Assembly: GCF_022919135.1 (NCBI RefSeq)
Contig: NZ_CP095049.1
Coordinates: forward strand, 5,775,001-5,839,000
Direction of reading: 5' to 3'
From: Hymenobacter cellulosivorans
Lineage (GTDB): Bacteria > Bacteroidota > Bacteroidia > Cytophagales > Hymenobacteraceae
DNA: 64,000 bases
In this document: positions 53,820 through 55,510 of the stretch, in pieces
Numbering within the stretch: the first letter of the stretch is position 1
Layout: every line of letters begins with the position of its first letter
The notes under the pieces: generated by a model
The model's database searches: none
Told to the model about the DNA's origin: nothing
What the model saw: only the letters and a program-made list of their open reading frames with translations
Program-made: the position numbers and the translations under genes

Positions 53820-53950
53820 AAAGAAGCAGGAAGTGGCTTTTTAATACTGCTGAAGGTGCCCAGCTCATCCGAAACAGAAAGCAGCAAATAACTTACAGCC
53901 TCGGGCGCGGTACCGCCTCCGATGAAAGTAGCGGGAGGTATCTGTTCAGG

Positions 53951-54023
53951 CTCTGGCAGCAGGGCTCGAACCTGCGGCCACCCGGACCGAGAGCCGGGCG
54001 CTCTTCCACTGAGCTATACCAGA
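53951..54023 (-). tRNA. tRNA-like gene 1, 8-nt anticodon loop, isotype undetermined
   Basis: Acceptor arm TCTGGTA/TGCCAGA, TA, D-arm GCTC-AGTGGAA-GAGC, G, anticodon stem CCCGG/CCGGG with loop CTCTCGGT, variable TGGCC, T-arm GCAGG-TTCGAGC-CCTGC, discriminator G. All four stems pair. The anticodon loop has eight bases instead of seven, so the anticodon is ambiguous (CTC would be Glu, CGG would be Pro). No CCA is encoded. It may be a real tRNA, a frameshift-type tRNA or a tRNA-like regulatory RNA. Confidence 0.75.
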
Positions 54024-54028
54024 GTGTG

Positions 54029-54100
54029 GGATGAGGACAGGATTCGAACCTGCGGCCAACCGGGTAGAGCCGGATGTTCTTCCACTGAACTACCTCATCC
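54029..54100 (-). tRNA. tRNA-like gene 2, 6-nt anticodon loop, isotype undetermined
   Basis: Acceptor GATGAGG/CCTCATC with an extra G-1:C73 pair, TA, D-arm GTTC-AGTGGAA-GAAC, A, anticodon stem TCCGG/CCGGT (outer U-U mismatch) with a 6-nt loop CTCTAC, variable TGGCC, T-arm GCAGG-TTCGAAT-CCTGT. The loop is one base short, so no standard anticodon can be placed. It ends 5 nt before tRNA-like gene 1 and shares with it the D-loop, the variable region and the 5' half of the T-arm. No encoded CCA. Confidence 0.75.
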
Positions 54101-54118
54101 TTTTGCGCGACCGGTCCG

Positions 54119-55510
54119 CTAGGAGTTGCCGGCAGCTTCCGGGCCGAGGGGCCGGGTGGGCTTACCGGAAAAATAGCGGTGGCGCTTCAAGACGGTGGCA
54201 AGATACGGATTGGCCACGCTCACACCATGCACCAGCTCGGGGGTGGGCCGAAAAGGCACTACCCCGTGCGGGCGCGGCGCCAGCCACCCCGATTTCAGCG
54301 GGTCTAATCCGGCTTGCTGACAAGCCAGCTCCACCTGCGCCCGGGTGCAGCGGGCAGTACCGGCAAACACTTCCCAGGGCAGTGGCAAAGTGGCCCACAC
54401 CTGGGTGTTGGGGTCCAGCTTCTGCCCCGCGCTGTAGTGCCAGGCCACTACGTCGGCGGCCATCAGGCGCAGGGCCTTGCCAAAGCACATTTCTTCCAGC
54501 ACAAACTCCATTCCTAGGGCGTAGAGCAGGTTCATCCATGCATCCCGGGCCTTGTTCCAGGAGCCGGCCGCCGCATTCCAGGTCGAGGAATCATCCCCCT
54601 GCTTCACTACCATCGTTTCGCGCGCAAAGGTGTTCCGGGCCCAGATGTGGCCTAAGTAGGTAGCCATTTCGTGGAGCAGGGTTGTCCAGCGCCCGAGCAG
54701 CTCGCCCTGCTGCTGACTGTTCAGGGCGGCCAGCACTTCTGGTGCGGGGTACACGTGCGCAATGGCCCACCAGTTGGCTGAAGGACTCGCCGGAACCGCG
54801 GCGGCGCCGAGCCACCCGGCAATAGCAGACGGCTTACGGCCGGCACAGCGGCGAAACAGCATGTCGGCTACCTGGTCGTAGGGCCGCTGCTGGCCACTGA
54901 TGGTAAACTCGCTGCGCAGGTTGCAGCGGGCGGTGTAGTAGGCTATAAAAGCGGCGCTATCCACGTCTTGCGCAAACTCCTCGTAGCTGAGCGTGTGGGC
55001 CAAGCCACTTTTGGCTATCTGCTCGAATTGCACCTTGCGCTGCTCGGCCAGCATGGTCAGCAGCTTTTCCTCCAGGTGCCGCACCGCGCGGAAGCGCTTG
55101 TTGTACTGCCGCTTCGACAAATCAAGGCCCTGGGCCTCCCGCGCAGCCCGGTCCAGGCGGTCGGTGCGGTAGTTGTTGCGCCCCACGGTTTTGCCGATCA
55201 GCGGATTTACTTCCTGTAAGAAAGCCTCTACCTCCCCGGCCTCTTCGTAGCGCAGGGCCGGGGCCGGTACCATGTCGAATAGCTCGGCGGCCGTCTGCAC
55301 TTGCCGGCTGGCCCCCACCGGCTGCCGGAAGGTTTGCAGCATGGCGGTGTACTGCCACACGCCGCGCCGCAGGGAGTGGGCAGCGGCCTGGCGCAAGGTC
55401 GTCAGTTCGGCGGGCGAGAGTCGGCCTTCCAACACGGGCAGTAGCAGCTCGGCCACGTCCTCAGGACGGCGGCGCTGCCGCAAGGTTCCATATAACGGCT
55501 GTACGTCCAT
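54119..55510 (-). CDS. Unrecognised 463-residue protein upstream of the tRNA-like pair
   Basis: A cytosolic protein, largely helical by sequence, that I cannot place in a named family. Conserved-looking blocks are: NNYRTDRLDRAAREAQGLDL then SKRQYNKRFRAVRHLEEKLL (about 110-155), EEFAQDVDSAAFIAYYTARC (about 180-200), GDDSSTWNAAAGSWNKARDA (about 305-325), and RLMAADVVAWHYSAGQKLDP with ATLPLPWEVFAGTARCTRAQ (about 350-395). It is rich in Arg and Trp in these blocks, as expected for an RNA- or nucleotide-binding protein; this is an inference. The stop is 18 nt before tRNA-like gene 2, and the three appear to be one unit. Confidence 0.75.
   Translation of the reverse strand: MDVQPLYGTLRQRRRPEDVAELLLPVLEGRLSPAELTTLRQAAAHSLRRGVWQYTAMLQTFRQPVGASRQVQTAAELFDMVPAPALRYEEAGEVEAFLQEVNPLIGKTVGRNNYRTDRLDRAAREAQGLDLSKRQYNKRFRAVRHLEEKLLTMLAEQRKVQFEQIAKSGLAHTLSYEEFAQDVDSAAFIAYYTARCNLRSEFTISGQQRPYDQVADMLFRRCAGRKPSAIAGWLGAAAVPASPSANWWAIAHVYPAPEVLAALNSQQQGELLGRWTTLLHEMATYLGHIWARNTFARETMVVKQGDDSSTWNAAAGSWNKARDAWMNLLYALGMEFVLEEMCFGKALRLMAADVVAWHYSAGQKLDPNTQVWATLPLPWEVFAGTARCTRAQVELACQQAGLDPLKSGWLAPRPHGVVPFRPTPELVHGVSVANPYLATVLKRHRYFSGKPTRPLGPEAAGNS

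Follow-up and report, generated by a model that had tools for sequence, protein, structure and literature searches.

Type III toxin-antitoxin systems lie on mobile DNA and combine a protein gene with small RNA genes, and in staphylococci some tRNAs are reserved for building the cell wall. RNA-repair operons (RtcB/RtcA with rsr-yrl) contain a protein gene that is adjoined by a tRNA-like RNA. The systems of Ro60 (Rsr, TROVE) with Y RNA or YrlA likewise join a dedicated protein to a small RNA with a tRNA-like part, and they are patchily distributed in bacteria (PMC7790460). Among non-canonical tRNAs, a yeast mitochondrial tRNA-Thr, a cloverleaf with an anticodon loop enlarged to 8 nt, does decode (PMC7609411). 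In this work, a stretch of 64,000 nucleotides of the Hymenobacter cellulosivorans genome (hereafter the window) was analysed, in which the gene of a protein without known family is followed by two tRNA-like RNAs. Such a module is not described in the open-licence PMC literature searched, nor in the passages taken from PMC7824862 (RNA repair), PMC7790460 and PMC7609411.

The protein gene (54119..55510, minus strand) is an open reading frame for 463 aa, and its product is predicted to be almost all-helical. The first tRNA-like RNA (54028..54099, minus strand, by ARAGORN) matches the Rfam tRNA model RF00005 with 57.0 bits at 54029-54099, and the second (53949..54023, minus strand, by ARAGORN) with 56.9 bits at 53951-54023. 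Both values are above the gathering score of 29, and the tRNA model is the only one in Rfam whose gathering score these RNAs pass. ARAGORN reports exactly these two tRNA-like genes in the window, on the same strand, and gives both anticodons as undetermined. The reading frame, the ARAGORN genes and the Rfam scores bear out the preliminary description of a 463-residue protein with twin tRNA-like genes on its strand. Of the spacings given there, 5 nt between the RNAs holds for the Rfam ends (4 nt for the ARAGORN ends), but the gap from the stop codon to the first RNA is 19 nt and not 18. The anticodon loop of the first RNA (54064..54069, minus strand) has 6 nt, CUCUAC, with a constant CUC and a variable UAC, and that of the second (53986..53993, minus strand) has 8 nt, CUCUCGGU, with a constant CUC and a variable UCGGU. 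The first RNA has U-U at 27:43, so its anticodon stem keeps four standard pairs. Both loops are of unusual size, but the word "defective", used in the preliminary description, does not apply if it is taken to mean decayed; the start with CUC (rarely CAC) and the odd length recur across phyla. The genome is one 6.1-Mb contig, and the motif of the constant arm together with the T-arm is present there solely at the two RNAs of the window; together with the linkage in all 42 loci examined, this exceeds what chance would give.

The protein was also expected to belong to no recognised family, and Pfam, NCBIfam, PHROG and PADLOC gave no match that would change this. For the window protein, no Pfam, NCBIfam or PADLOC family was found at E up to 10, with defence families as in PADLOC-DB 2.0.0 of 2023. 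Among 32 diverse members, the best Pfam E value was 0.018, and there was no PHROG match at E up to 0.01. A sequence search of solved structures returned nothing under E 0.27. The homologues number at least 1439 at E up to 0.001 (a lower bound, with 7992 candidates scored), and the closest named ones to the window protein are from Hymenobacter. The alignment of the 32 members drew on Bacteroidota, Streptomyces and Miltoncostaea plasmids, and viral contigs, and it has 34 invariant residues, including R13, R118, R141, R199, D307, S308, W311, N312, R322, K345, R348, D353, and W379. The AlphaFold2 model of the protein has a mean pLDDT of 85.1 and a pTM of 0.84, and residues 243-452, modelled separately, have a mean pLDDT of 89.3. 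In Foldseek, the full model matched no solved structure better than E 0.35, and the model of residues 243-452 none in the PDB better than E 0.87; no nuclease or effector fold was recognised in the protein. The predicted folds of two uncharacterised proteins, of the giant viruses Edafosvirus and Yasminevirus, do match that of our protein strongly (E 9e-15 and 7e-12, query TM 0.62-0.63), although the identity is 17%, the overall rmsd is large (10-12 angstrom), and both proteins are longer (551-579 aa).

One to four tRNA-like RNAs adjoin the protein gene in all 42 homologous loci examined, 25 of them chromosomal or plasmid and 17 on viral contigs. It had been proposed that the protein and the RNAs form one unit, a proposal that would have suffered if most homologues had no tRNA-like genes beside them; the opposite was found, and the adjacency in 42 of 42 loci supports the unit. 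In 38 loci, one to four RNAs lie within 900 nt of the gene and on its strand by ARAGORN and the arm motif, and in L020, L030, L064, and L075 one or two RNAs each, missed by ARAGORN, were found by motif search. The 42 loci exclude copies with the same set of RNAs (G088, which was read twice, G447, G458, G470, and G929) as well as the plasmid hits H4 and H6, and they are partly non-independent, as the RNAs of the three Streptomyces plasmids hardly differ and one RNA is common to L024 and L025. Viral arrays near the gene also contain 16 ordinary tRNAs without the arm, which were not counted. The RNAs are downstream of the gene in 24 of the 25 non-viral loci, the exception being the Miltoncostaea plasmid, and on the 17 viral contigs they are only upstream in seven and on both sides in one. 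In eight loci (L004, L005, L007, L010, L014, L015, L017, and L021) the 3' end of the protein gene and the first RNA overlap. Excision of the RNA from such a transcript would strip the stop codon off the mRNA, and the overlap may bear on regulation. On one viral contig (L016:5909-7673), four such RNAs surround one copy of the gene, and one of their loops is CUCAUAA, which we take to be the same letters as in the loop of the bacterial initiator tRNA. A 436-kb viral contig (L019:5813-5976) has twin RNAs upstream of the gene with the identical loop CUCUUGGGA and different acceptor stems.

In the reverse direction, a search of 101 Hymenobacter genomes for the arm motif with the T-arm gave 16 hits, two in each of the eight genomes that bear the protein gene (broken copies counted too); the 93 genomes that lack the gene gave no hit. 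The chance of a perfect overlap of two sets of eight among 101 is 5e-12 with genomes taken as independent, a value that is weakened by the relatedness of the genomes and by the origin of the motif. As the first loci, the eight positive Hymenobacter genomes among them, had been read before the motif was drawn up, the independent part of the result is the 93 negatives and the absence of stray copies. In the viral collection, eight stretches match the RNA motif and all eight encode the protein nearby; six are on already known contigs, and the two new ones both have the protein. With linkage and reverse co-occurrence supporting it from both directions, a partnership of the protein with these RNAs is near certain as judged from the sequences.

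The anatomy of the RNAs was compared in a parsed set of 70 distinct RNAs, selected for the arm GGC[T/A]C; one RNA (of L064) is outside the set, and for two the loop could also be read as one nt longer. The constant anticodon arm is GGC[U/A]C ... CC. All 70 RNAs have G30, G31, C32, C34, C39, and C40, of which G30, G31, C32, and C34 are letters of the selection, and they have U33 in 68 and A33 in two cases, and G41 in 67. The constancy of GGC[T/A]C in this set is partly by construction, so the arm was checked independently in the 24 distinct non-viral loci, where each of the 42 tRNA genes that ARAGORN reports near the gene has it. The portion 3' of C34 is hypervariable, with 46 distinct sequences among the 70 RNAs. 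The most frequent loop length is 8 nt (36 RNAs), followed by 7 and 9 nt (13 each), 6 nt (six), and 10 and 14 nt (one each). When 12 Hymenobacteraceae loci are compared pairwise, the first RNAs have a mean identity of 0.85 and the second ones of 0.92 outside the variable part, but the variable part is common to only 17% and 15%, respectively, of the 66 pairs. The acceptor stem is fully paired in 62 of 66 RNAs, yet the 66 comprise 51 different stems, with diverse 1:72 pairs and each of the four bases as discriminator. The varied acceptor stems and the four discriminators argue against one acceptor identity. Most plausibly, a protein that serves all these RNAs would hold them by the body of the tRNA and the constant arm, and would grip neither the acceptor end nor the loop tip. 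The tRNA fold itself is also found elsewhere, as 18 RNAs of ten other loci score 49.9-68.7 bits on the tRNA model.

The protein was found in 2 of 395 genomes of the phylum sample, in 8 of 101 genomes of the genus, in 11 of 204 of the family, and in 3 of 397 of the family of G088. Furthermore, 7 of 72,556 plasmid records have it, and none of 50,697 cultured-phage records matched. The named carriers belong to Bacteroidota and Actinomycetota, and one homologue is labelled as coming from an Acidobacteria assembly; the viral carriers include large contigs rich in tRNA genes, such as L015 with 330 kb. The flanking genes vary among the loci looked at (flanking ORFs of 15 loci listed, 10 scanned with Pfam, and five of the seven plasmid hits read). 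A conserved operon partner was sought there, and none recurs except a YrhB-domain gene adjoining two of the three Streptomyces copies; no gene of these loci points to a specific enemy. On a viral contig (L014:4217-4930), a Thg1-like tRNA guanylyltransferase is encoded two genes upstream of the protein (Pfam E 3.6e-23). By annotation, the gene on the Miltoncostaea plasmid (L030:10196-17134) is near two genes for peptidyl-tRNA hydrolase, one for an RNA ligase family protein, and one for threonine--tRNA ligase, and the tRNA-like RNA there has a 14-nt loop. In two of the eight Hymenobacter genomes, the protein gene is broken and both RNAs are intact. It is frameshifted in G431 (L036/L057), possibly by an assembly error, and in G487 (L037/L038) it is interrupted and split between contigs, with a sequence after the first part that is transposase-like by eye. 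Decoding of broken frames by the RNAs was considered, and no link was seen; the "internal stops" of G396 and G510 are the normal gene end.

By comparing the locus with Ro60, a hidden member of the TROVE/Y-RNA systems could be supposed, since a helical protein with tRNA-like partners recalls the general plan of Ro60-YrlA and a YrlA covariance match covers parts of both window RNAs. However, this match reaches 19.4 bits against a gathering score of 69, no Pfam TROVE match was found in the 32 members at E up to 1, and a profile comparison with 29 Hymenobacter TROVE proteins gave a probability of 0.2-0.4%, so that membership is rejected by sequence. No TROVE structure is among the matches listed for either model, and a missing match does not exclude the fold. 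Separate TROVE genes occur in 42 of 61 Hymenobacter genomes, and the motif is in none of 30 such loci; two of the 30 have a nearby ARAGORN tRNA hit (one tRNA-Lys, one with undetermined anticodon), neither of them with the motif. The own genome of the window has such a true TROVE (Ro60) gene outside it, at G000:C1:5019945-5020682 (L048). A hidden TROVE protein is very improbable on these grounds, and the expectation of a kind distinct from Ro60/Y-RNA is supported: there is no sequence relation, and our RNAs form full cloverleaves whose loop is hypervariable. As for the RNA-repair operons, neither RtcB nor RtcA was seen in the ten Pfam-scanned flanking proteins and five annotated plasmid regions, and an RNA ligase family gene is present, about 4.5 kb away, near the Miltoncostaea copy only. 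Another explanation is that the RNAs are genuine tRNAs with 6- to 9-nt loops that decode in an unusual way (as frameshift, suppressor, or codon-specific tRNAs), and that the protein charges or modifies them. The cloverleaves are complete and reach tRNA model scores, CCA is encoded in 10 of 66 RNAs, in all nine distinct forms of the 7-nt loops the anticodon is followed by a purine, as in decoding tRNAs, and the yeast mitochondrial tRNA-Thr (PMC7609411) is a precedent. On the other hand, the window RNAs do not have the ordinary 7-nt loop, and a purine follows the possible anticodon in merely 8 or 10 of 21 distinct 8-nt forms, depending on the register. Loops of 10 and 14 nt, the four discriminators and the many 1:72 pairs also speak against it, as does a loop that differs between close relatives with a hardly changed body. 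The yeast tRNA differs in that our RNAs are tied to one protein family and vary in loop length and sequence among close relatives. Suppressor reading was dropped, as triplets complementary to stop codons occur in 18 of 46 distinct loops versus 14 expected by shuffling (p 0.07), and so was quadruplet decoding, as a purine follows a 34-37 anticodon in only 8 of the 21 8-nt forms. An excess of GG in the loops (15 of 46, p 0.0005) was noticed post hoc and not used as evidence. We consider unusual decoding as the general role unlikely, and the preliminary view that these are not ordinary decoding tRNAs is supported, with the qualification that 13 of 70 RNAs have 7-nt, potentially decoding loops; judging by their sequence, a minority of the RNAs could decode.

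In a toxin-antitoxin system resembling type III, the protein would be a toxin acting on tRNA, and the tRNA-like RNA would neutralise it by mimicry. The small RNA genes paired with a protein gene on mobile DNA, the patchy distribution, the absence of any protein without RNA among the 42 loci, and the two Hymenobacter genomes that keep both RNAs beside a frameshifted or interrupted gene are consistent with it. However, the one to four separate tRNA-like RNAs are downstream in 24 of the 25 non-viral loci and do not form an upstream array of tandem short repeats, PADLOC has no match, the protein is strongly conserved across phyla, and the RNA motif does not occur in any of the 93 Hymenobacter genomes without the protein gene, so a toxin has a rather small chance of being the answer. 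Alternatively, the RNA may be a dedicated substrate or carrier, which the protein modifies, cuts, or loads for a product outside translation, with the cell-wall tRNAs of staphylococci as a parallel. Every locus examined has a dedicated RNA, and the invariant D307, S308, N312, R322, K345, R348, and D353 could resemble an active site. The RNAs have no common acceptor end or discriminator, though, no biosynthetic partner gene recurs in the neighbourhoods looked at, and the hypervariable loop would be left without a reason; a carrier role is doubtful in our opinion.

We tentatively hypothesize that the locus is a mobile two-component ribonucleoprotein module whose RNAs act as bait or sensor in a conflict over tRNA, a function that is quite possible but somewhat short of an even chance. 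Where the RNAs are downstream, the gene and the RNAs would be transcribed together, and the tRNA-processing enzymes of the host would cut out the RNAs. The protein would recognise the constant arm and the tRNA body rather than the acceptor end, and would be the holder or effector of RNAs that take no part in ordinary decoding. The hypervariable loop, being exposed, would do the work: in conflicts between phage and host or plasmid and host, it would bait or sense enzymes by which anticodon loops are attacked or read. An arm that stays constant beside a loop that changes fast fits a holder with a bait or specificity element, and the presence of the module on plasmids and on viral contigs rich in tRNA genes suggests a conflict over tRNA or translation. 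The bait or sensor module is favoured by the complete linkage and the reciprocal co-occurrence in Hymenobacter (eight of eight against none of 93), by the constant C39 and C40 versus the 46 sequences after C34, by the many invariant basic and polar residues of the protein, by the patchy distribution, and by carriers that include plasmids and viral contigs with tRNA arrays. Against it are the absence of a recognised nuclease or effector fold, of a PADLOC match, and of a recurring neighbour, the cultured-phage records without a match, which leave a role in known phages undocumented, and the ordinary 7-nt loops and encoded CCA of some RNAs. A bolder form of this idea, which we regard as speculative and improbable, is a new class of ribonucleoprotein in which the tRNA-like RNA is an exchangeable specificity cartridge, and the 3-11 nt after C34, evolving fast as a recognition sequence, choose the target RNA or enzyme. 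If true, the constant arm would be gripped by the protein, the class would be spread by plasmids and microbial viruses, and it would have distant structural relatives in giant viruses.

By sequence, the evidence points to an undescribed protein-RNA system common to bacteria, plasmids, and viruses of microbes. If so, it would add an obligate pair of a protein and tRNA-like RNAs, spanning at least two bacterial phyla and viral contigs, for which the protein and RNA libraries searched have no description. The pair is hidden by annotation, in which ARAGORN gives mostly undetermined anticodons and the proteins are labelled hypothetical. It would make the question of why mobile elements carry seemingly non-decoding tRNA genes a testable one, with a defined set of genes and a variable element.
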